A stretch of DNA of 46,529 bases from Marmoricola sp. (GTDB taxonomy: Bacteria; Actinomycetota; Actinomycetes; Propionibacteriales; Nocardioidaceae). The stretch lies in NCBI GenBank assembly GCA_025965195.1, contig JAOPXK010000089.1, forward strand, positions 1 to 46,529, in the 5' to 3' direction. The translations under genes were made by a program, and so were the position numbers. Below are positions 7,031 to 30,413 of this stretch, one piece after another. Within the stretch, counting starts at the first letter, position 1; each line of letters starts with the position of its first letter. The notes beneath the pieces are model-generated. The model saw nothing but the letters and a program-made list of their open reading frames with translations. It was not told where the DNA came from and did no database searches.

Positions 7031-7149
7031 GGGCAACTGCATGCCCTAGTTGACGGATGCACAAACCTTTGGCGCCCAGGGCGACGCGATTCCGGGCGGC
7101 CACATACCGGGATCGGAGTTCCACATCTTGGGACTCCTGTCACACTGAG

Positions 7150-7178
7150 TTGACGGAGATCAAGCCCGCGGGGAGTCT
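7150..7178 (+). promoter_or_regulatory. Promoter of the ilvB leader
   Basis: TTGACG at 7150-7155, a 17-nt spacer, then GAGTCT at 7173-7178. The start point would fall about 7 nt later, at or next to the ATG of the leader peptide at 7185, so the leader would be translated from a leaderless end. Confidence 0.6.
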
Positions 7179-7184
7179 TGGCTC

Positions 7185-7229
7185 ATGCGTTTTCAGAACC
7201 TCGTAGTACGCCCACGACGCGTAGGCTGA
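7185..7229 (+). CDS. ilvB leader peptide (14 aa, Leu-Val-Val)
   Basis: A short frame encoding MRFQNLVVRPRRVG. It contains tandem Leu-Val-Val codons (CTC GTA GTA, 7200-7208) and a third Val codon; all three Val codons are GTA, which is uncommon in the neighbouring genes. It ends 5 nt before a hairpin followed by a T-tract and lies 122 nt ahead of ilvB. Leader peptides rich in branched-chain residues are known ahead of ilvB in other actinobacteria. The inferred mechanism is ribosome stalling when charged tRNA-Leu or tRNA-Val is scarce, which prevents terminator formation. The peptide itself probably has no function. Confidence 0.8.
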   Translation: MRFQNLVVRPRRVG

Positions 7230-7233
7230 GCCA

Positions 7234-7288
7234 CCCCGGCTGCAGCACACGCGTCACCCTCCGTCGCCGACAGGCCGGGGGGTTTTTT
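7234..7288 (+). terminator. Transcription attenuator ahead of ilvB
   Basis: CCCCGGC (7234-7240) pairs with GCCGGGG (7274-7280), extended by TG/CA with a bulged G. The loop is long, and the 3' arm runs into six Ts (7283-7288). It sits between the leader peptide and ilvB, the classical place for an attenuation terminator. Confidence 0.75.
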
Positions 7289-7351
7289 GTTGGCCAAAGA
7301 CAAGCCAAAGACAACAGCAGTACCTGACCGAGAAGAAGGCCTGAGGAAGAG

Positions 7352-9126
7352 ATGAGCGACAACGGAGCCGACGCAGCCCACGGGGCTGCCGTCACCGGTG
7401 CGCAGAGCCTGATCAAGTCCCTGGAGTGTGCGGGCGCCGAGAACATCTTCGGCATCCCGGGTGGCGCGATCCTCCCGGCGTACGACCCCCTCTTCGACTC
7501 GAAGATCCGCCACATCCTGGTTCGCCACGAACAGGGCGCGGGCCACGCCGCGCAGGGGTACGCCACCGCGACCGGCAAGGTCGGCGTCTGCATGGCGACC
7601 TCGGGTCCGGGTGCCACCAACCTGGTCACCCCGATCGCGGACGCCTACATGGACTCGGTCCCGATGGTGGCCGTCACCGGTCAGGTCGGCGCCGCCTTCA
7701 TCGGTACGGACGCCTTCCAGGAAGCCGACATCCGCGGCATCACGATGCCGATCACCAAGCACAACTTCCTCGTCACCGACCCGGCCGAGATCCCGCGGAC
7801 GATCGCCGAGGCCTTCTACCTGGCGTCCACCGGACGCCCCGGACCGGTCCTCGTCGACGTGGCGAAGTCGGCGCTGACCTCGATGACGACGTTCAACTGG
7901 CCCACCGAGATCAACCTGCCCGGCTACCGACCTGTCACCAGGCCGCACTCGAAGCAGATCAGGGAGGCCTCGCGGCTGATCCTCGAGGCCCGCCGGCCGG
8001 TGTTGTACGTCGGCGGCGGTGTGATCCGGGCGCGCGCGTCGAAGGAGCTCCGGGTCCTCGCCGAGATGACCGGCATGCCCGTTGTCACGACGCTGATGGC
8101 CCGGGGTGCGTTCCCCGACAGCCACCCGCAGCACCTCGGCATGCCCGGCATGCACGGCACGGTCTCCGCGGTCGCCGGCCTGCAGAAGAGCGACCTGATC
8201 ATCAGCCTGGGTGCGCGGTTCGACGATCGGGTGACCGGCAACCTCGACTCGTTCGCCCCCAACGCCAAGGTGATCCACGCCGACATCGACCCGGCCGAGA
8301 TCGGCAAGAACCGCATCGTCGACGTGCCGATCGTGGGCGACTGCCGCGAGGTGATCGCCGACCTGATCGTCGCGCTGCAGGCCGAGCAGGACGCCGGCAA
8401 CACCGGTGACTACGAAGGCTGGGTGAAGTTCCTCGCCGACATCAAGGCGCGCTACCCGCTGGCCTACGACACCCCTGCCGAGGGCCTGGCGCCGCAGTAC
8501 GTCATCCAGCGGCTGGGCCAGATCAGCGGCCCGGAGTCGATCTACTGCTCGGGCGTCGGCCAGCACCAGATGTGGGCCACGCACTACGTCGGCTTCGAGA
8601 ACCCCAACACCTGGATCAACTCCGGTGGTCTGGGCACGATGGGCTTCGCCGTACCAGCCGCGATGGGTGCCAAGGTCGGCATGCCCGACAGCACCGTCTG
8701 GGCGATCGACGGCGACGGCTGCTTCCAGATGACCAACCAGGAACTCGCGACCTGCACGATCGAGAACATCCCGATCAAGGTCGCGATCATCAACAACGAG
8801 TCGCTCGGCATGGTCCGGCAGTGGCAGACGCTGTTCTACAACAGTCGTTACAGCAATACCGACCTCCACACTGGCCCCAAGAGGCGGATCCCCGACTTCG
8901 TCAAGCTTGCCGAGGCGTACGGCGCGGTCGGGCTGTCGTGTGACAACGCGAGCGACGTCGACGCGACCATCAACAAGGCCATGGAGATCAACGACGTCCC
9001 CGTCGTGGTCGACTTCCGCGTGCACCGCGACGCGATGGTCTGGCCGATGGTCGCCGCCGGCACCTCGAACGACGCCATCCAGTACGCGCGAGATCTCGCG
9101 CCCGACTTCGATGAGGATGATCTCTG

Positions 9127-9127
<1 letters not shown>
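7352..9127 (+). CDS. ilvB: Acetolactate synthase large (catalytic) subunit
   Basis: Condenses two pyruvates to 2-acetolactate, or pyruvate with 2-ketobutyrate to 2-aceto-2-hydroxybutyrate, using thiamine diphosphate, FAD and Mg2+. The 591-residue protein has the catalytic glutamate Glu60 in [14 protein letters not shown], the FAD-domain [10 protein letters not shown] segment, and the ThDP-binding motif from GDG at about 454-456 to INNE at about 480. GAGGAAGAG just before the ATG is a good ribosome binding site, so unlike many neighbours this gene has a 5' leader. That leader contains a Leu-Val-Val attenuator. Its stop overlaps the ilvN start (TGATG), indicating translational coupling of the two subunits. 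Confidence 0.98.
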
Positions 9128-18764: not shown

Positions 18765-20423
18765 ATGTCTGCAACCGCAACCGCACCGAAGGCTCCACGC
18801 AGATCCACTGCCCTCAAACGCGAAGTGGGCCTGATCGGTCTCCTGTGGGCCTCGATGGGCTCGATCATCGGGTCCGGCTGGCTCTTCGGAGCGCAGAAGG
18901 GCCTGATGGCCGCCGGACCGGCCGCGATCATCTCCTGGGTCATCGGAGGCTTCGCCATCCTGGTCCTTGCGCTGGTGCACGCCGAGCTCGGCGGGATGTA
19001 CCCCGTGTCGGGTGGCACCGCGCGCTTCCCGCACTACGCGTTCGGCGGCGCCGCCGGAGCCTCCTTCGGCTGGTTCTCCTGGCTTCAGGCAGCCACCGTC
19101 GCGCCGATCGAGGTCTCGGCGATGCTCACCTATGCCCAGCACTACGACTTCGCGCACAGCTGGGTGAAGCCGACAACCGGCGTCCTCACCGCGACGGGCA
19201 TCGTGATCGCGGTGATCCTGATGGCCCTGATGGCGGCGATCAACTTCCTTGGGGTCAAGAAGCTCGCTGCGACCAACAGCGCCGCGACCTGGTGGAAGGT
19301 CGCGATTCCCTTGCTCACGATCTTCGTGCTGGCGTTCGCGAACTTCCATACGTCGAACTTCCATGCCGCAGACGGCTTCAGCCCCGACGGCGCCAAGGGC
19401 ATCCTTGCCGCGGTCTCGACCGGCGGCATCATCTTCTCCTACCTCGGGTTCGAGCAGGCCGACCAGCTGGCCGGTGAGAGCAAGAACCCACGCCGCGACG
19501 TACCGTTCGCGATCATCGGGTCGATCGTGCTCGGCATGATCATCTACATCGCGCTGCAGGTCTCGTTCCTCCTGGCCCTGCCGAAGAGCGCGATCGGCGC
19601 GACCTGGACCGATGCCTCCTCCAAGGCCTACTACACCGTGTTCACCGGCCCGTTCGCCGAGATCGCGACCGTGCTCAGCATCGGGTGGCTGGCGTGGCTC
19701 CTGTACGCCGACGCGATCATCTCCCCGGCCGGCACCGGTCTGATCTACACGACCGGCAGCTCGCGGGTGTCCTACGGACTGTCCCGCAACGGTTACGTCC
19801 CGACCATGTTCGAGTGGACCAACAAGCGCGGTGTGCCGTGGGTGGGGCTGATTGCCGCGTTCATCACCGGCTGCGTGTGCTTCCTGCCGTTCCCCAGCTG
19901 GCAGTCGCTCGTCGGCCTGATCACCAGCGCCTCCGTGCTGATGTACGCCGGTGCACCGCTCTCGCTCGGTGCGTTCCGCAGACGGCTGCCCGATGCCGTG
20001 CGGCCCTATCGGCTTCCGTTTGCCGAGGTGATTGCGCCATTTGCCTTTGTCATCTCCGGCCTGATCATCCTGTGGTCGGGGTGGACGACGGACTGGAAGC
20101 TCGGGATCGCCATTCTGATCGGCTACCTGATCCTCGGGATCAGCCGCGCCCTGAACCTCAACGAGCACACCCCCGTCCTGGAGTGGAAGGCGGCCGCCTG
20201 GTTGCCGCCGTACCTCATCGGGATGGGGCTGATCGTCTACCTGAGCGACTTCGGACCGCTGAAGAACCCGGTCTTCCCGCTGTGGTGGGACATGGTGGTG
20301 GTCGCGGCCTTCAGCCTGGTCATCTACTTCTGGGCCATGCGCGTCTGCCTGTCCACGGAGCAGATGGAGGAGATGATCAAGGAGGTCGTCCTGCCCGAGG
20401 AGGAGGGCCTCGCGACCGCCTGA
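18765..20423 (+). CDS. APC-superfamily amino acid permease
   Basis: A 552-residue membrane transporter with about twelve helices and the APC signature LLWASMGSIIGSGWLFGA in helix 1. It closely resembles the permease at 5372-7030 along its length, so the two are paralogues with probably related amino acid or amine substrates. The ATG at 18765 is chosen because GGGAGG lies at normal spacing and it avoids the 28 upstream in-frame codons that overlap the promoter. A TACGCT -10 (18703-18708) and an adjacent GTGACC/GGTCAC palindrome suggest dedicated control. The stop lies 4 nt from the convergent methyltransferase stop. Confidence 0.9.
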   Translation: MSATATAPKAPRRSTALKREVGLIGLLWASMGSIIGSGWLFGAQKGLMAAGPAAIISWVIGGFAILVLALVHAELGGMYPVSGGTARFPHYAFGGAAGASFGWFSWLQAATVAPIEVSAMLTYAQHYDFAHSWVKPTTGVLTATGIVIAVILMALMAAINFLGVKKLAATNSAATWWKVAIPLLTIFVLAFANFHTSNFHAADGFSPDGAKGILAAVSTGGIIFSYLGFEQADQLAGESKNPRRDVPFAIIGSIVLGMIIYIALQVSFLLALPKSAIGATWTDASSKAYYTVFTGPFAEIATVLSIGWLAWLLYADAIISPAGTGLIYTTGSSRVSYGLSRNGYVPTMFEWTNKRGVPWVGLIAAFITGCVCFLPFPSWQSLVGLITSASVLMYAGAPLSLGAFRRRLPDAVRPYRLPFAEVIAPFAFVISGLIILWSGWTTDWKLGIAILIGYLILGISRALNLNEHTPVLEWKAAAWLPPYLIGMGLIVYLSDFGPLKNPVFPLWWDMVVVAAFSLVIYFWAMRVCLSTEQMEEMIKEVVLPEEEGLATA

Positions 20424-20427
20424 CGGC

Positions 20428-20994
20428 TCAGCGCTTGGTGGCGATCAGGACCGACGCGTCGGGCGCGACCATCACCTCGGCGGCGGTGAATCGCTCATCG
20501 AGCAACCACTGCTCGCGGAACACGTCGACCCGACCACCGGAGATGGGTGGCCAGGACTCGCACGGCACGAAGTCGTCGAGGACGACGATTCCGCCGTCCT
20601 CGACGAGGTCGAAAACCTGGTCGGCGCCGGAGTCGGCTGGCTCGCGGGCGTCGAGGAACAGCAACGAGAACGGGCCCTTGTCGTGCAGTGTCGACCAGTT
20701 GGCGGCGACCACCTCGACCTGGTTGTCGTCCTTGAAGATCTCGGCTGCACCCTTGGCCAGCTTGGGATCGAGCTCGGCGGTGAGGATCGTCGCGCCTGCG
20801 CGGACACCGGACCGCAGCCACGCCGTACCCACGCCGCAACCGGTGCCGAACTCCGCGAGCGTGCCACCGCGCGTCGCCGCCAGTGCCGCGAGCAGCCGAC
20901 CGGTCTCGTTGCGACAGAACGACACGTAGCCACTGCGGCGGGAGACGTCGAACGCACGCGAGACGATCGCGGGGACATCGGGTGGGGCACTCAT
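20428..20994 (-). CDS. Class I SAM-dependent O-methyltransferase-like protein
   Basis: A 188-residue protein with the Rossmann-type methyltransferase motifs: motif I EFGTGCGVGTAWLRSG (about 42-57), an acidic strand end ILTAELDPKLA, and motif IV LLFLDAREP. It resembles the small catechol O-methyltransferase-like proteins of actinobacteria. No N-terminal targeting signal is present. The substrate is unknown. GAGACT on the minus strand lies 7 nt before the start codon, again suggesting a leaderless message. It is the only leftward gene before the structured leuB leader. Confidence 0.75.
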   Translation of the reverse strand: MSAPPDVPAIVSRAFDVSRRSGYVSFCRNETGRLLAALAATRGGTLAEFGTGCGVGTAWLRSGVRAGATILTAELDPKLAKGAAEIFKDDNQVEVVAANWSTLHDKGPFSLLFLDAREPADSGADQVFDLVEDGGIVVLDDFVPCESWPPISGGRVDVFREQWLLDERFTAAEVMVAPDASVLIATKR

Positions 20995-21075
20995 GTGGTC
21001 GAGTCTCGCAAATGCCCGCTGGGAGTCCAGTCGGCCGATCGCAGTCTCGAATCATGGGACATCCAACTATTTTCC

Positions 21076-21105
21076 GGGACAGCAGAGCGGGTCACTGCTT
21101 ACCCT
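21076..21105 (+). promoter_or_regulatory. Possible promoter of the leuB-region leader
   Basis: GGGACA (21076-21081), an 18-nt spacer and TACCCT (21100-21105). Transcription would begin a few bases before the leader ATG at 21115. Confidence 0.4.
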
Positions 21106-21114
21106 TGTCGAACC

Positions 21115-21162
21115 ATGCGGAAGTTCTACGTACTCATTGACCGCCGTGGCGAGGCCTCTTAA
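21115..21162 (+). CDS. Putative branched-chain leader peptide (15 aa, Val-Leu-Ile)
   Basis: A frame encoding MRKFYVLIDRRGEAS, with consecutive codons for Val, Leu and Ile (GTA CTC ATT, 21130-21138), two of them rare in this genome. The final codons and the stop lie in the 5' arm and loop of a strong hairpin. It has no ribosome binding site, but the predicted transcription start is only a few bases before the ATG. The match between the codon trio and the downstream genes leuB and ilvE suggests attenuation. Against this, leuB lies 376 nt further on and may have its own promoter. Confidence 0.5.
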   Translation: MRKFYVLIDRRGEAS

Positions 21163-21182
21163 GTAAGGCCACCTCGCCGCGG
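21144..21182 (+). terminator. Strong hairpin overlapping the Val-Leu-Ile leader stop codon
   Basis: CCGTGGCGAGG (21144-21154) pairs with CCTCGCCGCGG (21172-21182) with one G-U pair; CCT/AGG extends it inward. No T-tract follows. A ribosome finishing the leader would cover the 5' arm, while one stalled at the Val-Leu-Ile codons would leave it free. Confidence 0.55.
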
Positions 21183-21401
21183 AGTTCGGCGATGTCCGCC
21201 ACTGGCCTTGCGAATCTGCCCAGGCAGAACCTCCGCGAGCGAGTAGCGAAGCACCACCCGCATCCTTCTCTCGACACACCTCCGGTTTCCGCGCAATCCG
21301 CGGGCCGTCTCGAGGTCTGTTGCCCGGCTCCTTTCGCGGAGGCCCCTGTAGCCCAGTCAACACAGGCCTCGAGCAAGCCCAGACGTGAAGGAAACAAGAC
21401 C

Positions 21402-21527
21402 ATGTACGAGATGTACCCAGAGTGGGGCCCGGCGCGGAACGACCCGGAGAGCCCAACCAGCCACCAGGCACTGCAGGCTGCTCTTGACCTGCGAGACAAC
21501 GGCGGCGAACGCCCCGACGACAACTAG
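21402..21527 (+). CDS. Small acidic protein (41 aa) upstream of leuB
   Basis: A 41-residue frame (begins [17 protein letters not shown], ends NGGERPDDN) with GAAGGAAA at a good distance before the ATG and strong G/C third-position bias, both signs of real coding. It is hydrophilic and acidic, with a short helical centre ([14 protein letters not shown]). I do not recognise a family. It stops 11 nt before leuB, and its TAG stop is part of TAGAGT, a possible -10 for leuB. It could be a small regulatory protein or a second leader. Confidence 0.55.
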
Positions 21528-21537
21528 AGTCTGGGGA

Positions 21538-22611
21538 ATGCCTACCGCGTCCACTCTTCCCCAGTCATTGAAGCTTGCAGTTATCCCGGGTGACGGGATC
21601 GGAACCGAAGTAACCGCAGAGGCGCTCAAGGTGCTCGAGCAGGTCACGCCGTCGAACGTGAAGTTCGAACCCACGCGTTATGACCTGGGCGCCGAGAGAT
21701 ATCTGCGCACCGGTGAGGTCCTGCCCGACTCGGTGCTCGAGGAGATCCGTCAACACGACGCGATCCTCCTCGGTGCGGTCGGCGGCAAGCCGAACGACCC
21801 GAACCTTCCGTCCGGCATTCTCGAGCGGGGACTGCTCCTTCGGCTTCGCTTCGAGCTCGACCACTACGTGAACCTGCGTCCGTCGAAGATCTACCCCGGC
21901 GCGACGTCGCCGCTCGCCGATCCGGGTGAGGTCGACTTCATCGTCGTCCGCGAAGGCACCGAAGGGCCCTACACGGGCAACGGCGGCGCCCTCCGGGTCG
22001 GCACCCCTGCCGAGGTGGCCACCGAGGTCTCGGTCAACACCGCCTTCGGTGTGGAGCGTCTGGTTCGCGACGCGTTTGCCCGTGCGCAGAGGCGCCCGCG
22101 CAAGAAGCTGACGCTGGTCCACAAGACCAACGTGCTCGTCAACGCCGGCTCTCTCTGGTGGCGGCTCTTCCAGAGCGTGGCCGGGGAGTACCCCGAGGTC
22201 AGCACCGACTACATGCACATCGACGCAGCCATGATCCACCTGACGACCGATCCGTCGCGCTTCGACGTGATCGTGACCGACAACCTGTTCGGCGACATCA
22301 TCACCGACCTCGCCGCTGCCATCACCGGCGGCATCGGCCTGGCAGCCTCCGGCAACATCAACCCCGACCGGACCGCCCCGTCGATGTTCGAGCCGGTGCA
22401 CGGCTCGGCACCCGACATCGCCGGCCAGCAGAAGGCTGACCCGACCGCCGCGATCCTGTCGGTCTCGTTGATGCTCGACCACCTCGGGCTCTCCGAAGCC
22501 GCTGCCACCGTCGAGCGTGCAGCCATTGCCGACCTCGCCAGCCGCACTCCGGGCACCACCCGCACCACCGCGGAGGTTGGCGACGCGATCGCCGGGCGAG
22601 TAGCCGGTTAA
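21538..22611 (+). CDS. leuB: 3-isopropylmalate dehydrogenase
   Basis: Oxidatively decarboxylates 3-isopropylmalate to 2-ketoisocaproate in leucine synthesis, and 3-methylmalate to 2-ketobutyrate when citramalate feeds isoleucine synthesis. The 357-residue protein has [12 protein letters not shown], the [17 protein letters not shown] substrate-loop region, the [18 protein letters not shown] metal-binding strand, and the NAD-binding [12 protein letters not shown] motif. ATG 21538 matches the family N-terminus. TAGAGT at 21525-21530 lies 7 nt upstream, suggesting a leaderless promoter in addition to any read-through. ilvE follows after 43 nt. Confidence 0.97.
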
Positions 22612-22654
22612 CGCCCGTTTACCAACCCCGCTATTCCAGAGGTAAGTTCAGACC

Positions 22655-23734
22655 ATGGAGATCTCGTTCAACCCTTCAGCCAGCCCTCGTAGCGACGAGG
22701 AGCTCGCGGCCGTTCTGGCCAACCCCGGCTTCGGCCAGCACTTCACCGACCACATGTTCTCCACCTTGTGGACTCCGGAGGCAGGCTGGCACGACGCGAA
22801 GGTCACGGCGTACGCACCCCTGAGCATCGACCCCGCGACCGCCGTACTGCACTATGCGCAGGAGATCTTCGAGGGCTTGAAGGCCTACCGCCACGAGGAC
22901 GGGTCCATCCAGACCTTCCGCCCCGAGGCCAACGGTGCCCGGCTGGAGCGTTCCAGCCATCGCCTCGCGCTGCCGGTGCTCCCGGTGGACGACTTCGTTG
23001 CCAGCATCGACGCGCTGGTCAAGGCCGACGAGCGCTGGGTGCCCGACGCTGCAGGGGAGAAGAGCCTCTACCTCCGGCCGTTCATGTTCGCCTCCGAGGT
23101 GTTCCTCGGTGTGCGTCCGTCCAAGCACGTCACCTACATGGTGATCGCGAGCCCGGCGGGCGCTTACTTCGCCGGCGGCATCAAGCCGGTCCGGCTCTGG
23201 CTCTCCGAGACCTACACCCGCTCGGGCCGCGGAGGCATGGGCGCGGCCAAGACCGGTGGCAACTACGCCAGCTCGCTCATCGCGCAGCAGGAGGCCATCG
23301 AGAAGGGCTTCGACCAGGTGGTCTTCCTCGACGCCGAAGAGGGCAAGTACGTCGAGGAGCTCGGCGGCATGAACCTGTACTTCGTCTACGACGACGGCAG
23401 CATCGTGACGCCCGAGACCTCCGGCACGATCCTTGAGGGGATCACCCGGGCTTCGATCATCGAGCTCGCCGGCAAGCTCGGCCACAAGGTCGACGAGCGC
23501 AGGATCTCGATCGATGAGTGGCGCGAGGGCGTCGAGAGCGGCCGAATTGTCGAGGTCTTCGCCTGTGGCACGGCCGCGGTCCTGACGCCGGTGGGCGTGC
23601 TGGCGTGGAACGGCGGCGAGGTCGGCGGGTCCGAAGGAGTCGGTGAGGTGACCGGCAAGATCCGCCAGGCCCTGGTCGACATCCAGTTCGGCCGCGCCGA
23701 GGACACCTTCGGCTGGATGCACCGCGTCCTCTGA
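22655..23734 (+). CDS. ilvE: Branched-chain amino acid aminotransferase
   Basis: A fold-type IV PLP enzyme that transfers amino groups from glutamate to 2-keto acids, forming valine, leucine and isoleucine. The 359-residue length and motifs fit BCAT: EIFEGLKAYRHEDGS, LYLRPFMFAS, the PLP lysine in MGAAKTGGNYASS, EELGGMNLYFV, and the C-terminal ACGTAAVLTPVG. TAAGTT at 22643-22648 is 6 nt before the ATG (leaderless). It follows leuB by 43 nt and could be served by both its own promoter and read-through. A kinase gene follows after 30 nt. Confidence 0.97.
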   Translation: MEISFNPSASPRSDEELAAVLANPGFGQHFTDHMFSTLWTPEAGWHDAKVTAYAPLSIDPATAVLHYAQEIFEGLKAYRHEDGSIQTFRPEANGARLERSSHRLALPVLPVDDFVASIDALVKADERWVPDAAGEKSLYLRPFMFASEVFLGVRPSKHVTYMVIASPAGAYFAGGIKPVRLWLSETYTRSGRGGMGAAKTGGNYASSLIAQQEAIEKGFDQVVFLDAEEGKYVEELGGMNLYFVYDDGSIVTPETSGTILEGITRASIIELAGKLGHKVDERRISIDEWREGVESGRIVEVFACGTAAVLTPVGVLAWNGGEVGGSEGVGEVTGKIRQALVDIQFGRAEDTFGWMHRVL

Positions 23735-23764
23735 TTAGTGTGAGCCGCCGGTTACCGTGAACTG

Positions 23765-25435
23765 GTGACTGTCTCTTCGACCGGGTCCTCCGCGGCATCA
23801 TCGGGGTCCCCGGACCTCCGTGTGGGCCGCTACCGCCTGATCACCGTCATCGGTGAGGGCGGCATGGGAGTGGTGCACCTGGCCGAGGCCGAGGACGGTC
23901 ACCGCGTCGCGCTCAAGGTCCTCCGGCCCCACATCGTCGGCGACCACGAAGCCCGGGAACGCCTCGCCCGGGAGGTCGGCTCGCTGAGTCGGATCACCTC
24001 TCCGCGGGTCGCTGAGATCGTCGACGCCGACCCCTACGGTGACGTGCCGTTCGTCGCGACCCGCTATGTCCCCGGGCTCTCGTTGCACCAGCACGTGCAG
24101 GAGTACGGCCCGCTCAGCGATGTCGACCTCGTCATCCTCGCCGAGGGCCTTGCCGATGCACTCCTCGCGGTGCACCGGGTCGGCGTCCTGCATCGCGACA
24201 TCAAGCCGTCCAACGTCCTGATGGAAGGTCGCGCCCCTGTTCTGATCGACTTCGGACTGGCGCGGCTGGCCGAGGACCCGCGGCTCACCCAGACCGGCTG
24301 GCTGCTCGGCACTCCCGGCTATCTGGCGCCCGAGGTGTTGTACGGCGACGACGCGAGTCCTGCTTCCGACGTACATTCACTCGCCGCGACGGTCGTGTTC
24401 GCGGCCACCGGTCAGGCCCCGTACGGCCGCGGGCCGGCGATGGCGATCATGGACCGGGTACGCCGCGGCGAGCACGACCTCACCGGTGTGCCCGACTCGC
24501 TGGTGCCGCTGCTGGAGTCCTGTCTGGCGCCGGACCCACTGGACCGCCCGTCGCTGGTCGACCTGCACCGGACGTTGCGCGGACAGCTCGACGCCCTCGG
24601 CACGAGCGGGCCTCGCCCGGCCCCGGCGCCCGCGAATGACCAGTGGACGGTGCCGGTCGCGGTTGCTCACGCTCGTGACATCCACGAGATCCGGATCGCA
24701 CCGACCGTCGTCCAGCCGGTCACCCCTCCCACGAGGCTGCTGGACCGCACCTCCCTGGAGTCCAACGCGTTCAACACGCACGTCGACATCGCACCCACAC
24801 CCGTCGAGCCCGGCCAGGACCAGCCGTTCCACGCTCCTGTCGCGATTGCCGAGCGACGTGGCAAACAGCGGTTGATCACGCTCGGCTTCGGCGTGCTCGC
24901 GACGGCGATGGTCGCTGCTTCGCCGTACCTCGGAGCAGCGGTCGTCATCGCGGTCGTCGTCCTGCTGCGACTGGCCTCGGTCACGTCACAACGGCACTCA
25001 CGCCGACAGGAGCTGCGCGGCCGCGCCAGGTGGTACGACGTACCGGCCTCGACGATCTTCACCCCCGGCTACCTGTTGCTCAGTCTCGCCGGCACGATCC
25101 TCCTGGTCGGCTGGGCTGCCGCAGCCGCTGCTGCGACGGCGATCCTGATGGCAGTCGGCAAGGCACCGATCGCCGGCGGCGCGGTAGCCGTCGGCGTGGC
25201 GTTCGCGTTGGCGATCTGGTGGGGACCCGGCTCGGCCCGGGTGCGGGAGATGTCGCGCAAGACCACCCGTCGGCTGTCCGGAGACTCGTCCGCAGGCTGG
25301 GTGGTGCTGGCAGGGTCGGTGCTCGTCGCGATCGTGCTGTTCGCCTGGGTGGGCGCCAACGGCCCGAACTGGGCGCCGCAGACCTCGACTCCCTGGAACG
25401 CGAACTTCGCGAACCGACTGCACAACGTCTTCTGA
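23765..25435 (+). CDS. Membrane-anchored Ser/Thr protein kinase (Hanks type)
   Basis: A 556-residue protein. Residues about 20-280 are a eukaryotic-like kinase domain with the glycine loop GEGGMGVV (30-37), Lys51, catalytic HRD at 143-145 followed by Lys147, DFG at 162-164, and GTPGYLAPEV. A Pro-rich linker leads to a C-terminal region with several transmembrane helices (from about residue 365). It ends with a short extracytoplasmic tail rather than PASTA repeats. The GTG start follows TACCGT (23753-23758) by 6 nt. All catalytic residues are intact. Partners are unknown, and its position after ilvE is not evidence of a role in amino acid control. Confidence 0.93.
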   Translation: MTVSSTGSSAASSGSPDLRVGRYRLITVIGEGGMGVVHLAEAEDGHRVALKVLRPHIVGDHEARERLAREVGSLSRITSPRVAEIVDADPYGDVPFVATRYVPGLSLHQHVQEYGPLSDVDLVILAEGLADALLAVHRVGVLHRDIKPSNVLMEGRAPVLIDFGLARLAEDPRLTQTGWLLGTPGYLAPEVLYGDDASPASDVHSLAATVVFAATGQAPYGRGPAMAIMDRVRRGEHDLTGVPDSLVPLLESCLAPDPLDRPSLVDLHRTLRGQLDALGTSGPRPAPAPANDQWTVPVAVAHARDIHEIRIAPTVVQPVTPPTRLLDRTSLESNAFNTHVDIAPTPVEPGQDQPFHAPVAIAERRGKQRLITLGFGVLATAMVAASPYLGAAVVIAVVVLLRLASVTSQRHSRRQELRGRARWYDVPASTIFTPGYLLLSLAGTILLVGWAAAAAAATAILMAVGKAPIAGGAVAVGVAFALAIWWGPGSARVREMSRKTTRRLSGDSSAGWVVLAGSVLVAIVLFAWVGANGPNWAPQTSTPWNANFANRLHNVF

Positions 25436-25472
25436 GCAGTCCTCTGAGCAAGCCTTCCGGGCCGTCCCTGGC

Positions 25473-26318
25473 TCAGGCCTGCCAGACCGAGCCGATCCGC
25501 TCGGCCAGCCCGCGCCCTTGGGCCGCGCCCGCCTCCGCTGCTGCGGCTCGCCGACCCGGATCGAGCAGGTTCGGTCCGATGGCGTTCCTGGCCGCCTTGT
25601 CAGGGACGACGCTCGCAGTGTGAGCGGCGCCGGTCCGGGTGAGCTGGGCCGACAACGAATGCCTTCGGGAGACCGCCTGCGCGATCGGCGCGATCACGAT
25701 GACCGTGGCGAACCCCGTTGCCTGGTCGGCATTCGCGACCGATCGCGCGCCCCCGTCGATGTACGTCGCCTCGCCGATCGGGACGGGCGGCCAGATCAAC
25801 GGCACCGAGCAGCTCGCGGCGACCGCTTCGATCAGCGGGACGCCGCTGCTGCGGTCGAAGATCACGAAGGCGCCGGTGTGGGCGTTGACCGCGGTGATCC
25901 GCAGGTCGCGCTCGGGCCACTCGGGATCGCCGATCCGGGTGCGCATCACGCGCATCCGGTCCGTCGGCGCCTCGGGATGCGCCTTGATCGAGGCCCGTCC
26001 GAGGCGCTGTCGCTTCACCTCGCCGTTGCCTGGCATCACCATCAGGCTGACCATCCTCACGAGCGTGCGCTTGTCCAGCTTTCCGGCGCCGAGGCTCTTG
26101 TACTCCGATGTGTCGACGGGACGGATCTGCTCGTCGTACAGCTCGTCGAGGTCGAGTCCGGTGCTGAGCTGGGTGCCGACGACCGACCCTGCCGACGTAC
26201 CGATGATCGTGTCGGCGCCGGTGAGATCGACCCCCGAGTCGCGGAGGCCCTTCAGAATGCCGAGCTCCCAGGCGATGCCAGTGACGCCGCCGCCGCCGAG
26301 GACGAGGGCGCGACTCAT
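25473..26318 (-). CDS. Patatin-like phospholipase
   Basis: A 281-residue serine hydrolase of the patatin/RssA type. It has the oxyanion loop GGGGVTG (8-14), the nucleophile elbow GTSAG with Ser42, and the catalytic Asp in YIDGGARS, giving a complete Ser-Asp dyad. Such enzymes deacylate phospholipids or related esters at membranes. No signal peptide is present. It converges on the kinase gene with a 37-nt gap and is divergent from the cimA leader, so its promoter lies within 26319-26390. Role unknown. Confidence 0.88.
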   Translation of the reverse strand: MSRALVLGGGGVTGIAWELGILKGLRDSGVDLTGADTIIGTSAGSVVGTQLSTGLDLDELYDEQIRPVDTSEYKSLGAGKLDKRTLVRMVSLMVMPGNGEVKRQRLGRASIKAHPEAPTDRMRVMRTRIGDPEWPERDLRITAVNAHTGAFVIFDRSSGVPLIEAVAASCSVPLIWPPVPIGEATYIDGGARSVANADQATGFATVIVIAPIAQAVSRRHSLSAQLTRTGAAHTASVVPDKAARNAIGPNLLDPGRRAAAAEAGAAQGRGLAERIGSVWQA

Positions 26319-26376
26319 CCGGCTGTCCGATGCGTCGGATTCTGGGACTTGCGTTTCACGCGATGGACACCTGTGG

Positions 26377-26382
26377 CAAAAT
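26377..26382 (+). promoter_or_regulatory. -10 element of the cimA leader
   Basis: CAAAAT, 7 nt before the GTG of the Ile leader peptide. TTTCAC lies about 17 nt further upstream as a weak -35. Confidence 0.5.
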
Positions 26383-26389
26383 CGACAAC

Positions 26390-26416
26390 GTGCATGCAGC
26401 GATCATCATTCACTAG
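26390..26416 (+). CDS. cimA leader peptide (8 aa, Ile-Ile-Ile)
   Basis: GTG-started frame encoding MHAAIIIH, with three consecutive Ile codons (ATC ATC ATT, 26402-26410) and a stop whose last base opens an 11-bp hairpin. It sits at the predicted transcription start, 88 nt before cimA, whose product commits carbon to isoleucine. A second frame starts at ATG 26394 and reads Ser-rich codons into the hairpin; it lacks pathway codons. Ribosome stalling at scarce Ile-tRNA is the inferred control. Confidence 0.65.
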   Translation: MHAAIIIH

Positions 26417-26469
26417 CGCGTCAGGAACCTCCTGACGCGCCAACCTCTCGTCCAACGGGGGGTTTTTTT
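26416..26469 (+). terminator. Attenuator region ahead of cimA
   Basis: Perfect 11-base arms (26416-26426 and 26430-26440; core CGCGTCAGG/CCTGACGCG) with a 3-nt loop, followed after 16 nt by GGGGGG (26457-26462) and seven Ts (26463-26469). AACCTCC (26426-26432) or AACCTC (26442-26447) can pair with the G-run. The first would compete with the strong hairpin, as expected of an antiterminator/terminator pair. Confidence 0.65.
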
Positions 26470-26503
26470 GTTGCCGCACCCAAGTCGACCGAAAGCCGAA
26501 ACG

Positions 26504-28099
26504 ATGACCAGCCCAATGGACCGGGACGCCTTCCACGTCTATGACACGACGCTGCGTGACGGCGCCCAGCAGGAGGGGCTCAACCTCTCCGTGGCCGACA
26601 AGCTGGCCATTGCGCGCCAGCTCGACGGGCTCGGCGTCGGCTACATCGAGGGCGGCTGGCCGGGCGCGAACCCGAAGGACACCGAGTTCTTCCGTCGCGC
26701 CCAGCTCGAGCTCGAGCTCGAGCACGCGCAGCTGGCTGCGTTCGGCGCGACCCGTCGCGTCGGGATGAAGGCGGCCGACGACCCCCTGATCGCGGCCTTG
26801 CGCGACTCCGGCGCCGGTGTCGTCACCCTGGTCGCGAAGTCGCACGACCGGCATGTCGAGCTCGCGCTGCGGACCACGCTCACCGAGAACCTCGCGATGA
26901 TCCGCGACACGGTCTCCCACCTGCGCACCGAGGGTCAGCGGGTGTTCCTCGACGCCGAGCACTTCTTCGACGGCTACCGGGCCAACCGCGCGTATGCCCT
27001 CGAGGTCCTCAGGACAGCGGCCGAGGCCGGCGCCGAGGTGGTGGCGCTGTGTGACACGAACGGCGGCATGCTTCCCGACTGGGTCAGCGATGTCGTTGTC
27101 GACGTACGCGAGGCGCTGTCGCCTGATGGCGCCCGGGTGGGGATCCACTGCCACAACGACACAGGTTGTGCGGTCGCCAACACCCTTGCTGCGGTGGATG
27201 CCGGAGCGACGCATGTGCAGGGCACCCTCAACGGGTACGGCGAACGCACCGGCAACGCCGACCTCGTCACCGTGGTCGCGAACCTCGAGCTCAAGCTGGG
27301 CCGCCACGTGCTCCCCGAGGGCCTGCTGCGCGACGCCACCCGGATCGCGCACGCCGTGGCCGAGGTCACCAACGTGCCGCCCGCATCGCGTCAGCCGTAC
27401 GTCGGGACGAGTGCGTTCGCACACAAGGCGGGCCTGCACGCGAGCGCGATCAAGGTGGACCCGAACCTCTATCAGCACATGGACCCGATCGGCGTCGGCA
27501 ATGACATGCGCCTCCTCGTCTCGGACATGGCCGGCCGGGCGTCGATCGAGCTCAAGGGACGCGAGCTCGGGTTCGAGCTCGACCAGGACCTCGTCGCCCG
27601 GATCACCAAGCGGGTCAAGGAGATGGAGTCCCGCGGCTACACGTTCGAGGCTGCTGACGCGTCCTTCGAGCTGCTGCTTCTCGAAGAGGTCGAGGGCGTG
27701 CGGCCGTCGTACTTCGACATCGAGTCGTGGCGCGTGATCACCGAGACCGCCGGCGAGAGCGAAGCGCTCTCGGAGGCGACCGTGAAGCTGCGTGCAGCCG
27801 GTGGTCAACGGATGGTGATGACCGGCGAGGGCAACGGTCCGGTCAATGCGCTGGACCACGCGCTGCGGCAGGCGATCGGACAGGCCTGGCCGGAGGTCGC
27901 GAAGTTCGAGCTGATCGACTACAAGGTCCGGATCGTCGACCAGGGCCATGGCACCGACGCCATCACCCGGGTGCTGATCGAGACCACCGACGGCGTCTCG
28001 TCGTGGGTCACCGTCGGCGTCGGCCACAACGTGATCGAAGCGTCGTGGCGCGCGCTGCTGGACGGGCTGACGTTCGGCCTTCGCCGCCACAACGCCTGA
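26504..28099 (+). CDS. cimA: Citramalate synthase
   Basis: Condenses pyruvate and acetyl-CoA to (R)-citramalate, opening a threonine-independent route to 2-ketobutyrate and isoleucine. The 531-residue protein belongs to the CimA branch of the DRE-TIM family: [17 protein letters not shown] at the N-terminus, the [13 protein letters not shown] metal and substrate strand, [12 protein letters not shown], and a C-terminal LeuA-type allosteric domain (from about 380). The ATG at 26504 gives the family-typical start; upstream in-frame codons lie in the T-tract. The next pathway steps would use LeuCD and LeuB, both encoded here. An alternative reading as a divergent 2-isopropylmalate or homocitrate synthase is less likely given the Ile leader. 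Confidence 0.9.
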
Positions 28100-28107
28100 G
28101 CAGCTGG

Positions 28108-29043
28108 TCAGCTGACGGCGTTGCGGATCGCGCGGGCGACGACCTCGACGGCCGCGATCTCGAGGACGACCGGGTTCTCCATGGCAATGCCGGTGCTCAG
28201 GACGAAGGCGGTGTCCCCGTCGAGCGCGGTGTGGACCGGCCTGATCGCGTGGGCGAAGCCGTCGTGGACGACCTCGGAGAGCCGATGGGCCTGGGTCTTG
28301 TCGAGCCCGACATTCGTGGCCACCACTACGAGGGTGGTGTTCTCGCCCGGTGCAGCGGGCATCGACAGTCCGTTGGCCAGCAGCGTCTCGACGATGTCAC
28401 CGGGCCCGGCGATCGGCGTACCGTCCGCTGCGACGATGTCGCCCACGGCATTGACCGCAGCGAGCGCTCCGATGATGCCGCCGCCGGGAAGCTCGACCGA
28501 CGCAGTACCGATCCCGCCGGGCGCCGCCTGGTCAGGACCGAGCAGCTTGCCGACGGTCGCGCCGGTGCCGGCGCCGAAACGCCCGTTGCCGCAGGGGGAT
28601 TCGGGTTCGGCGTCGATGCAGGCATGCCGTCCGGCGGCCGCGTCGGGCGTGGCGTTCGGGTCTCCGACGCCGAGGTCGAAGAGCACGGCCGCGGACACGA
28701 TCGGGACGTTGCGCACCCCGGTGGGAAAGCCGATGCCCTTTTCGGCGAGATGGCCCATCACGCCGTCGGCCGCGGCGAGCCCGAACGCGGAGCCGCCGGC
28801 CAGCAGGATCGCGTGGACCCGATCGACCGTGCGCCCGGGCCGGAGCAGGTCGGTCTCGCGCGTGCCCGGTGCGGCACCGCGTACGTCGACCGAGGCGACC
28901 GCTCCCTCGTCGGGCGCGAGCACGACAGTGCAACCGGTCAGCCCGACCGGATCCGTCCAGTGCCCGACCCGGATGCCGGGTACGTCGGTGATGTCGCCCT
29001 GGTCTGCTGAGTCCACCTCCCCACGGTAGAGCCCCGTGCTCAA
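28108..29043 (-). CDS. P1 family (S58) peptidase, NylC/DmpA-like Ntn hydrolase
   Basis: A protein of about 311 residues. DITDVPGIRVGHWTD at the start, LLAGGSAFGLAAADGVM and GNGRFGAGTGATVGKL are typical of the P1 family. PGENTTLVVVATN carries an Asn235-Thr236 pair matching the autocleavage site of nylon-oligomer hydrolase NylC, where Thr becomes the N-terminal nucleophile. Natural substrates are unknown; relatives cleave short amides or N-terminal D- or beta-amino acids. I chose the TTG at 29043 because GGAGGAGGAG lies 5 nt before it on the minus strand; a longer frame reaches 29124 without a site. It converges on cimA with an 8-nt gap. Confidence 0.85.
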   Translation of the reverse strand: MSTGLYRGEVDSADQGDITDVPGIRVGHWTDPVGLTGCTVVLAPDEGAVASVDVRGAAPGTRETDLLRPGRTVDRVHAILLAGGSAFGLAAADGVMGHLAEKGIGFPTGVRNVPIVSAAVLFDLGVGDPNATPDAAAGRHACIDAEPESPCGNGRFGAGTGATVGKLLGPDQAAPGGIGTASVELPGGGIIGALAAVNAVGDIVAADGTPIAGPGDIVETLLANGLSMPAAPGENTTLVVVATNVGLDKTQAHRLSEVVHDGFAHAIRPVHTALDGDTAFVLSTGIAMENPVVLEIAAVEVVARAIRNAVS

Positions 29044-29136
29044 GGGATCTCCTCCTCCATGGCATCCGACGCTACGCCGGTCTAGCCGGGCTGCCGATTG
29101 ACCACGGGAACCGAGTCGCGCCACTACCTTGCAGCC

Positions 29137-29493
29137 ATGACTGATGCCGCCGTACAGCCCGGACCAGGATCCGGGGACCGGGTGATCGCCGTCGTGCTGC
29201 TGGTGCTCTTCGCCCTTGCCTGCGCGGTCGCGTCGTTCGTCGGCATCATGCTCGCCTTCGTCTCCGACAGCTGCAACGGGAGCAACTGCGACACCGGGCT
29301 GATCGCCACCGGGATGTTGGTCACCGCGGTGGTGCCCTGGGCCATCTGGCTGCTGACCCTGATCCTGACGATCGTGTGGTTCGCGCGCTCGAAGAAGGCC
29401 TGGTGGCTCCCGCTCGTCGGCGCCATTGCGGCCGGAGTCGCGGCGGGCATCGGCATCGCGATCGCCTTCGCCGGGGCACCTTCGGGTTTCTAG
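29137..29493 (+). CDS. Small membrane protein of unknown function
   Basis: A 118-residue protein with three hydrophobic helices (about 16-40, 55-82 and 90-115). The first loop contains SDSCNGSNCDTG, whose two cysteines could form a disulfide outside the membrane. The N-terminus is short and hydrophilic. No family is recognised. TACCTT (29125-29130) sits 6 nt before the ATG, so the message is probably leaderless, and earlier in-frame starts are excluded. It is divergent from the P1 peptidase and convergent with the glycosylase-family gene. Confidence 0.65.
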   Translation: MTDAAVQPGPGSGDRVIAVVLLVLFALACAVASFVGIMLAFVSDSCNGSNCDTGLIATGMLVTAVVPWAIWLLTLILTIVWFARSKKAWWLPLVGAIAAGVAAGIGIAIAFAGAPSGF

Positions 29494-29513
29494 CGCCAGC
29501 TCGGCGGGACGCG

Positions 29514-30413
29514 TCAGTCAGTGAGAAGTCGGTCGCACTCGTCGATCAGGCGCTGGCGCAAGGGCGCACCACGTTCGGCGAAGGTGCGTTGCGCGGCGAC
29601 GTACTCGGCCTTGCCCTCCGGTGTCTCGATCCGGACCGGCGTGAAGCCCAGCTCGCCGAAGTCGTACGGCGAGGCGCGCATGTCGAGCTCGCGGATGTCC
29701 CAGGCCAGCTCGAAGCAGTCCGCGACCAGCTCCGAGGACACCAGGGGAGTCAGCCGGAACGCGTGCTTGTAGAGATCCATCCCGGCATGAAGGCAACCCG
29801 GCTGTTCGAAGGCGACCCGGTCCCCGCTGGCCGGTTGCAACGTGTTCAGCGGCCGCGCGGTCGGTGTGAAGAACCGGAACGCGTCGAAGTGCGAGCAGCC
29901 GATCCGGTGCGACTCGACGACCTCGTCGGTGCCGGTCGGCCCGAGCCGCAGCGGCCAGTCGTGGCGGACCGCCGGCGTGCGGTGCACCATCGCCCACTCG
30001 TGCAGGCCGAAGCAGCCGAGCGTCGGCTGCCGACCGGCCGTCGCGACCAGAAGGGTCCGGACCGACTCGAGCAACCCCCGTCGACTCTCCAGATGATCGG
30101 CCGTAACGGATAGTCCGCCACGAAAAGCACCTGATTCGGGTCCCGATCGGTGCTTTTCGTGGCGGACTATCCGGCCGTAGCCCTTGAAGTTGGCGTGGTC
30201 GGGGGCATCCGCCAATGCGACGCCGTACCCGGGGTGCCAGCGCCGGAGGGCGGCCGGGCGCTGGGAGTAGTAGACGAACAGGAAGTCGTGGACCGGGTGT
30301 GAGACCTGCTTCCGACGGCGCTCGAGGTGCGGTTGGATCCAGACGTCGACGCGTGCCTCGTGCGCGGCCTGGCGGGCTTGCCAGGTCGCGCGTTCGAGGA
30401 TCGTGGTGGTCAC
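29514..30413 (-). CDS. 3-methyladenine DNA glycosylase family protein (uncharacterised actinobacterial family)
   Basis: A 299-residue protein of the actinobacterial family usually labelled 3-methyladenine DNA glycosylase, recognisable by HPVHDFLFVYYSQRPAALRRWHPG, GCFGLHEWAMVHR and QPGCLHAGMDLYKHAF. No helix-hairpin-helix or other known glycosylase motif is visible, so the label is inherited rather than proven. GTG 30413 gives the family N-terminus MTTTILERATWQARQ. The stretch IVRHEKHRSGPESGAF and its neighbours (about residues 80-100) is encoded by a roughly 67-bp near-perfect palindrome (30107-30173). From memory, relatives lack such a segment, so this looks like an in-frame insertion. The frame stays open, so the protein may still work. 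Confidence 0.75.
   Translation of the reverse strand: MTTTILERATWQARQAAHEARVDVWIQPHLERRRKQVSHPVHDFLFVYYSQRPAALRRWHPGYGVALADAPDHANFKGYGRIVRHEKHRSGPESGAFRGGLSVTADHLESRRGLLESVRTLLVATAGRQPTLGCFGLHEWAMVHRTPAVRHDWPLRLGPTGTDEVVESHRIGCSHFDAFRFFTPTARPLNTLQPASGDRVAFEQPGCLHAGMDLYKHAFRLTPLVSSELVADCFELAWDIRELDMRASPYDFGELGFTPVRIETPEGKAEYVAAQRTFAERGAPLRQRLIDECDRLLTD
30107..30173. repeat. Large palindromic element inside a coding sequence
   Basis: Perfect 25-base inverted arms (30107-30131 and 30149-30173; core CCGCCACGAAAAGCACC) flank a 17-nt centre that is itself nearly symmetric (GAT T CGGG T CCCG ATC). The whole 67 bp is therefore close to one continuous palindrome. It is read through in frame by the glycosylase-family gene on the minus strand. 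I found no second copy in the window. Confidence 0.9.

Follow-up and report, generated by a model that had tools for sequence, protein, structure and literature searches.

Citramalate synthase, the product of cimA, catalyses the reaction with which isoleucine synthesis via citramalate begins, and the short region ahead of cimA in Marmoricola sp. raises the question of whether this step is placed under the control of isoleucine by a leader peptide and, if so, how the RNA would switch between termination and read-through. For the window, i.e., the whole stretch of 46,529 nucleotides that was analysed, an original prediction made from the letters alone had described an 8-codon GTG-started frame with three consecutive Ile codons, ending at the base of an 11-bp hairpin ahead of cimA. 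This was confirmed in the sequence, with the frame at 26390-26416 and the hairpin, named H1, at 26416-26440.

Parts of the cimA leader

The features of the region are as follows:

26377..26382, plus strand: predicted -10-like hexamer CAAAAT, 7 nt upstream of the leader GTG (from the sequence)
26390..26416, plus strand: leader open reading frame MHAAIIIH, 8 codons, GTG start, TAG stop (from the sequence and homologues)
26402..26410, plus strand: regulatory codons ATC ATC ATT (Ile-Ile-Ile), the last of which starts 8 nt 5′ of H1
26416..26440, plus strand: hairpin H1, 11 bp, 3-nt loop, GCGCG/CGCGC basal clamp; proposed antiterminator (from folding and covariation)
26442..26464, plus strand: terminator hairpin T, 10 bp, 3-nt loop, 1 base 3′ of H1 (from the fold, terminator features and covariation)
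26463..26469, plus strand: U tract (T7) of the predicted intrinsic terminator (from the sequence)
26504..28099, plus strand: cimA, citramalate synthase, ATG at 26504 (TIGR00977, E 2.7e-193, 643 bits, cut-off 450)
25473-26318, minus strand: patatin-like gene, divergent, 5′ of the leader, which lies between this gene and cimA
23765-25435, plus strand: kinase-like gene, about 1 kb upstream, beyond the patatin-like gene (gene prediction and profile match)

The leader codons are GTG (26390-26392), CAT, GCA, GCG, ATC (26402), ATC (26405), ATT (26408) and CAC, followed by the stop codon TAG (26414-26416), whose G is also the first base of H1. Folded alone, H1 reached -20.2 kcal/mol. Hairpin T has the sequence AACCTCTCGT CCA ACGGGGGGTT, with AACCTCTCGT as its 5′ arm. 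A run of six G and a run of seven T had also been pointed out before cimA, and both are present (26457-26462 and 26463-26469); the G run, however, is not free, being part of the 3′ arm of T. Together with the U tract, T is, as judged from its sequence and predicted fold, an intrinsic-terminator-like structure located between the leader and cimA, and the leader RNA measures 80 nt from the GTG to the end of the U tract. For the 127-nt region from leader to cimA, a fold z of -4.88 was obtained, with none of 200 shuffles being equally stable.

Conservation, codon register and covariation before cimA

Upstream regions of cimA were scanned mechanically for a pair of tandem hairpins with a U tract and two or more Ile codons in frame. 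The scan covered 181 regions, 80 of them from genome_contigs and 101 from same-family genomes above the cimA cut-off; 179 are distinct, two (L002 = L103 and L003 = L180) being counted in both sets, and the sample leaves out the second over-cut-off cimA piece of one genome (G059). Full matches were obtained for 111 regions; four more had the tandem hairpins and too few Ile codons, and 66 did not pass the strict scan. The counts given below refer either to 115 tandem elements (the 111 with at least two Ile codons plus the four with fewer) or to a structural table of 108 rows, for which L062, L097 and L112 were omitted from the 111 for register reasons; the 108 rows correspond to 103 distinct ones when the leader is counted and to 102 without it. 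A control of 1,089,564 bases, consisting of the plus strand of the 80 loci minus the 500 nt before cimA and of their entire minus strand, yielded five matches, all of which head leuB-ilvE-cimA operons and therefore look like true leaders. These five (L054, L058, L061, L071 and L077, from three Acidimicrobiaceae and two other actinobacterial MAGs) have an Ile leader and a different terminator sequence.

The codon 8 nt before H1 was Ile in 112 of the 115 tandem elements, with the hairpins kept alongside, and Ile was found at -11 in 102/115 and at -14 in 73/115; the presence of at least two Ile codons was a selection criterion for 111 of these elements, the codon register was not. The three exceptions at -8 (L013, L048 and L112) also contain an Ile run, the scripted H1 start being off register. 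The last Ile stood at -8 independently of the stop position in 107 of 108 rows. Not one of the 115 elements had kept its hairpin and lost the leader frame, and the Ile leader peptide with an attenuator-like terminator that had been predicted ahead of cimA was supported by these comparisons.

In 98 of 108 leaders, the end of a [TC]ANNNT hexamer was located 4-8 nt ahead of an ATG or GTG in frame, with a spacing of 6-7 nt in 94 of the 98. When the start was kept and the preceding 40 nt were shuffled, the corresponding value was 12.4%; shuffling the start codons as well gave 4.2%, a control that flatters the result. Leader length was 8 or 9 codons in 57/98. The spacing from hexamer to start is that of a promoter whose transcription start is the start codon, so that the leader mRNA is probably leaderless; in the window, transcription would probably start at or beside the GTG, before 26416.

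A covariance model covering both stems, R2, was derived from the 34 cimA leaders of alignment A3. Out of 42 leaders whose T loop has 8 nt, 34 rows had been chosen, of which A3 keeps 33 (L006 omitted); its remaining row is the window copy, L106. At E up to 0.05, R2 matched 87 of the 100 cimA loci scanned in the same family. Seeds account for 22 of these matches, and the 100 loci exclude L182, which was positive in the mechanical scan. It also matched 41 of the 80 genome_contigs cimA loci, with 11 seeds among them. These 41 elements share the strand of cimA; 34 stand immediately in front of cimA and seven in front of a leuB-cimA or leuB-ilvE-cimA operon. The 41 loci include Nocardioides, Pedococcus, Nonomuraea, Cellulomonas, Isoptericola, Demequina, Kutzneria, Amycolatopsis, Lentzea and Pseudonocardia. 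Of 296 genomes drawn from the phylum, 72 had a match at E up to 0.01, under stricter filters and with any downstream gene. The cimA element of the window itself was matched at 26392-26472 with 81.1 bits, which follows by construction because its copy is among the 34 seeds; independent support for an RNA family, as defined from sequence, is provided by the non-seed matches in both sets of cimA loci.

An R2 match was absent in 13/100 same-family and 39/80 genome_contigs cimA loci. Among the 13 (L095, L098, L107, L115, L123, L131, L133, L134, L138, L156, L163, L167 and L176), L115 is a 75-nt contig end whose genome, G119, carries the element on another contig, and in L098, L107, L133 and L156, cimA follows ilvE-like sequence, as seen by eye. 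In L123, L131 and L138, where the attenuator is absent, a TAGACT hexamer was seen by eye 7 nt before the start codon of cimA itself. The sequences of these three loci give the impression that leader, H1 and T were lost together, like one excised module.

Covariation across cimA leaders had been proposed as a check, and both hairpins proved to covary. In the A3 alignment, 12 of 20 pairs showed changes on both sides (7/10 aligned pairs in H1 and 5/10 in T) and 95.3% of cells were paired, counts which lean toward clean hairpins because the rows had been picked for clean hairpins. Compared with 500 shuffles, four of five covariation measures were reached by none and the fifth, the number of pair types, by 10; slid versions of the A3 stems came nowhere near the true covariation. 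The base of H1 is almost invariantly GCGCG/CGCGC, paired substitutions being rare (C-G to U-A in 2/103 and G-C to A-U in 2/103), and the H1 loops are C-rich and variable in length and sequence.

The two hairpins stand back to back. With up to 25 nt permitted, 109 of 114 tandem pairs had their best gap between H1 and T at -1 to 1 nt, and abutment was also found in 27 of 31 measured ilvB elements (see below), three more not being measurable. Wider gaps were 2 nt (L210, L246, L249), 3 nt (L211), 4 nt (L066, L214, L227), 6 nt (L013) and 9 nt (L257, L262), and five of the more distant elements gave no measurable gap; in some more distant elements the spacing is thus wider than strict abutment would require. 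The basal 5 bp of H1 were stronger than those of T in 108/108 rows, and H1 as a whole was more stable than T in 97/108. In the same 108 rows, the stop codon was positioned -2 to +19 from the start of H1 (-12 to +24 being permitted in the scan) and T started 20-42 nt after the stop codon. Where the stop lies inside H1, H1 is longer (29-43 nt, n = 38, vs. 22-39 nt, n = 70, in a raw comparison uncorrected for relatedness). The conserved abutment fits mutual exclusion of the two hairpins without proving it.

Related elements before ilvB, leuA and leuS

Although trained on cimA leaders alone, R2 also matched elements before other genes. A subset of 69 further matches (L193-L221, L226-L245 and L246-L265) was examined, and the gene after the element was ilvB in 40, cimA in 14, leuS in four, leuA in three, leuB in two and isocitrate lyase in one, five being unassigned. 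For each of the 59 matches that tblastn could place, element and gene share a strand. The start of ilvB was within about 180 nt of the element in 26/40 and about 310-620 nt away in 14/40, where another short gene may intervene.

Codons were compared for 35 ilvB leaders (34 of the 40 matches plus the window copy; 33 plus the window copy, i.e., 34, in the gap table) and for 12 more distant cimA leaders (10 of the 14 matches plus L062 and L066). Ile, Leu or Val was present at -14 and at -11 in 35/35 ilvB leaders, and Leu at -14, -11 and -8 in 3/3 leuA leaders; the more distant cimA leaders had Ile at -11 in 11/12 and at -8 in 6/12. The leuS leaders read MRRVLLLI, MNRALLA and MPVALLLSEPR, with one more ending in QLLP; in the register of the model, Leu was at -11 in 2/4, and two of the four were out of frame. 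The leuS elements with Leu codons are L227, L228, L230 and L236, of which L228 and L236 belong to the genus of the window. By sequence comparison, the regulatory codons follow the downstream gene, with Ile codons ahead of cimA, Leu codons ahead of leuA and leuS, and Val, Leu or Ile codons ahead of ilvB. This is a natural codon swap, and the ilvB, leuA, leuS and cimA leaders would form one RNA family of back-to-back-hairpin attenuators of branched-chain amino acid genes, defined here by R2.

The window contains a second element of this kind:

7193..7291, plus strand: further member of this RNA family, ahead of ilvB (R2 17.5 bits, E 0.029)
within 7193..7291, plus strand: leader MRFQNLVVRPRRVG followed by a stop codon, H1 at 7216-7255 and T at 7256-7283 (from sequence and fold)
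7352-9127, plus strand: ilvB (TIGR00118)

Here, H1 (GACGCGT...ACGCGTC) touches the terminator ACCCTCCGTC...GGGGGGT, which is followed by a U tract.

The ilvB leader of L261, MRTRILVLGKRVG, is letter for letter the S. lividans ilvB leader published in PMC8079986, so that the L261 genome can be taken as Streptomyces-like. L195 and L196, which bear the same genus label, have a 16-codon cimA leader ending in MIIGSRRAGPQ and a stop, with a much longer H1, and by the codon table L197 and L201, again from Streptomyces-like genomes, also have a cimA leader. The cimA leader of L195 and L196 is missing from the table of eight leader peptides available in PMC8079986; the family thus predicts, for Streptomyces-like genomes, a leader peptide beyond that published S. 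lividans list.

An R2 match of 37.9 bits (L250:1214-1301, minus strand) lies before an isocitrate lyase gene, an unexpected gene for the family, with a leader ending in RGFVAIA and a stop. Of the matches without a fitting gene, L231 and L238 resemble coding sequence, L237 is 343 nt and L245 has no gene assigned. L215 has an LVLIR leader, and no gene was recognised behind it. A PF00291 search of genome G000, aimed at a candidate threonine deaminase that might make cimA dispensable, gave 10 matches.

Proposed antitermination and rival readings

What is observed are the parts, their conservation, covariation and spacing, and a codon identity that follows the downstream gene. On sequence grounds, it is well supported that the cimA element joins the leader-peptide attenuators already known, and we consider it highly likely that the cimA leader acts as a ribosome-mediated, Ile-responsive transcription attenuator. 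The unit before cimA would very probably be an RNA switch that turns cimA on when isoleucine runs short, and isoleucine-specific control is proposed for this gene in many Actinomycetota. Its notable features are its breadth, the small, leaderless-type 8-codon leader and the family-wide codon swap.

Actinobacterial leader-peptide attenuators have been described for ilvB (Corynebacterium, Mycobacterium, Streptomyces), leuS and trp (Seliverstov et al. 2005, PMC1262725; S. lividans table, PMC8079986). The cimA element resembles them in its short, often leaderless reading frame with end-product codons, followed by a terminator and a branched-chain amino acid gene. It differs from them in that its codons are Ile only and in that cimA is absent from the regulated genes in the available parts of both sources, where the ilvB, leuS and leuA leaders are also not joined with cimA as one RNA family. 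The LEU element of leuA, in which a run of Leu codons pairs with the leuA Shine-Dalgarno box (PMC1262725), was not recognised here, the codons being Ile and a terminator separating leader and gene. Closer in layout is the ilvB-II motif of Corynebacterium, with an upstream reading frame coding for branched-chain amino acids and stems P1 and P2, P2 being the terminator (PMC10272879, in the part available); that motif sits before ilvB in Corynebacterium, the present element before cimA in the family of the window and in other actinobacteria.

That no described cimA attenuator of this kind is known was already remarked in the original prediction, and this agrees with the open-licence literature on cimA and branched-chain leaders, where none was found among the matches listed. 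None is described in the available parts of PMC1262725, PMC8079986, PMC2965389, PMC13236596, PMC11857589, PMC11109978, PMC8632094, PMC13158618, PMC12452182 and PMC10272879, and a term search of PMC4833913 was empty.

In the proposed mechanism, transcription would begin at the GTG, and a ribosome would load on the bare 5′ end and translate the eight codons. With ample isoleucine, it would reach the stop codon at the base of H1 (inside H1 in relatives) and cover the 5′ arm of H1, whereupon H1 would not form, T would close and the polymerase would stop before cimA. With low isoleucine, the ribosome would wait on the Ile codons, leaving H1 free to fold; positioned 0-1 nt from the base of T and having the stronger GCGCG clamp, H1 would block completion of the T stem in the exit channel of the polymerase, and with T kept open, transcription would continue into cimA. 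Since the stop codon is at -2 to +19 from H1 and T starts 20-42 nt past it, a ribosome at the stop would mask H1 and not T; termination under ample isoleucine then means that a formed H1 should oppose T. As in the E. coli trp attenuator, the position of the ribosome on the regulatory codons would pick between two RNA states; unlike there, no conserved overlapping 1:2/2:3/3:4 series was found, and the regulatory codons lie before H1, not inside it. We infer that the leader is translated, that the ribosome stalls, in which direction cimA responds and, most of all, the prevention of T by H1, a step whose means can be tested.

The most familiar means would be a pairing that overlaps T. In such a classical arrangement, a stalled ribosome would free the loop and 3′ arm of H1 (AACCTCC) to pair with the 3′ arm of T (GGGGGGTT) as the antiterminator, an arrangement to which the C-rich H1 loops would lend themselves and for which Narunsky et al. 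(2023) offer a precedent by proposing a P1 loop/P2 right shoulder antiterminator for ilvB of Corynebacterium (PMC10272879, in the part available). The original prediction had likewise seen two mutually exclusive folds, based on AACCTCC and the G run. In the window, 7 bp can form between them, and with the 5′ arm of H1 masked, the fold containing T (-12.4 kcal/mol) is equal to the enforced alternative (-12.4 kcal/mol), so that this fold may have a local role in the window. Across the family, the claim was not supported: for 102 distinct leaders, the H1 loop showed no excess complementarity to its own T 3′ arm over the arms of other genomes (z 0.04; fraction of permutations as good, 0.51), nor did the H1 loop plus the inner 3′ arm (z 0.77), and within the genus (n = 65) the z values of both pairings were -1.28 and -0.19; the true stems gave z -10.7 and -13.4 as controls. 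Folding argued in the same direction: with the H1 5′ arm masked in the 108 rows, the best folds leaving the T 5′ arm unpaired were above the minimum-energy fold by a median of 8.7 kcal/mol and never by less than 0.6. A stalled ribosome reaches about 12 nt beyond the first base of its A-site codon, and when placed on the first Ile codon it would fall short of H1. A conserved antiterminator made of the H1 loop and arm with the T 3′ arm was rejected on the complementarity and folding tests, and we regard the classical overlap as quite improbable for this leader.

Four further pairings were likewise tried on the 102 leaders and dropped, none showing excess complementarity. These were the 5′ arms of H1 and T with each other (z +1.92), and the leader with, in turn, the T 5′ arm (z +2.20), the T 3′ arm (z +0.40) and the H1 loop (z +0.99).

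An antiterminator fold could be dispensed with altogether if H1 only held the polymerase until a ribosome loads, the closeness of the ribosome then setting termination. A leader RNA as short as the present one would need such synchronisation, and a pausing role of the first hairpin has been discussed for C. glutamicum ilvBNC (PMC11857589, in the part available). The 0-1 nt gap between H1 and T and the fixed distance of the Ile codons to H1 are left unexplained by pausing, however. In pyrBI, a trailing ribosome keeps the terminator open; here, the stop codon starts at least 20 nt before T in the 108 rows, and a trailing ribosome would not hold T open in the same manner. Pausing as the sole role of H1 is thus unlikely.

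Should the structured RNA be read by a protein or a small molecule, the Ile codons would be a relic or secondary, and codon changes in the S. coelicolor ilvB leader have indeed been reported without regulatory effect, those in the leuA leader of the same organism with an effect inconsistent with classical attenuation (both cited in PMC1262725, in the part available). In M. tuberculosis, the ilvB1 leader reporter was low and did not respond once LVVI had been exchanged for AAAA (PMC13236596, in the part available). Recognition by a ligand is made very unlikely by codons that change with the gene (Ile before cimA; Leu before leuA and leuS; Val, Leu or Ile before ilvB) and by H1 loops that vary in length and sequence, and no Rfam family matched the elements tested: a search at E up to 5 gave three weak matches in window positions 20000-30000, all outside the cimA element, and further searches gave two weak ones in 12 loci, both outside the elements, and none in window positions 6900-7400, which hold the ilvB element; no T-box, riboswitch or leader family was found on the cimA, ilvB, leuA and leuS elements tested. 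Finally, T could be a non-regulatory terminator of unrelated transcription, combined with chance Ile codons, given that the plus-strand kinase-like gene about 1 kb upstream could send stray transcription toward cimA. Conservation, covariation, codon register and codon swap contradict this, and its probability is close to nil.

Overall, a ribosome-mediated attenuator that makes cimA respond to charged tRNA-Ile appears to be the likely explanation, and the spacing of the hairpins makes it probable that H1 is its antiterminator. Since no tested alternative pairing is conserved, whereas the contact of H1 with T is, and since H1 has the stronger base in 108/108 rows, H1 is proposed to block the lowest pairs of T. 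As T is part of the minimum-energy fold of the window, both for the whole leader and with the H1 5′ arm masked, equilibrium folding does not show antitermination, and the abutment step leans on the general geometry of the polymerase exit channel; that steric abutment is the means by which H1 prevents T is put forward tentatively, our confidence staying somewhat short of even. Against the ribosome-mediated explanation speaks the position of the codons, judged by the ribosome footprint: with Ile at -8, H1 would stay free only when the ribosome halts on the first or second Ile codon, and a ribosome halted on the last one would overlap H1 by about 4 bases. The wider gaps, the drop of Ile at -8 to 6/12 in the more distant cimA leaders, the cimA loci lacking an R2 match and the S. 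coelicolor codon changes cited above likewise count against it.

The nearest published idea to the abutment of H1 and T, among the literature found, is the three-hairpin model of C. glutamicum ilvBNC, in which the adjoining antiterminator and terminator hairpins compete for a shared trinucleotide, GCC (PMC11857589, in the part available). Common to both are neighbouring hairpins competing at their bases and control codons that precede the antiterminator. The C. glutamicum model has the shared GCC, a drawn antiantiterminator hairpin and a 15-codon leader, whereas the hairpins of the cimA leader share at most about one base and its leader has 8 codons. A broader picture, which we hold with still more reserve than the abutment itself, would be one old Actinomycetota RNA chassis that was reused before cimA, ilvB, leuA and leuS, retuned in its codons, and that antiterminates without alternative pairing, a hairpin at the base of the terminator blocking closure inside the polymerase and the ribosome melting that hairpin. 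The codon swap across the four genes offers a natural experiment on the reading of ribosome position, and the back-to-back hairpins raise the question of whether a hairpin can antiterminate merely by its position at the base of a terminator.

In the full window fold, the leader (26380-26410) pairs with a stretch behind the U tract (26470-26485). Complementarity between these two parts was higher within a genome than between genomes (z -3.25 for 102 leaders); within the genus, z was -3.55 with a 36-nt leader, which may partly precede the transcription start, and -1.84 with a 27-nt leader. This pairing might be relevant in the read-through mRNA.
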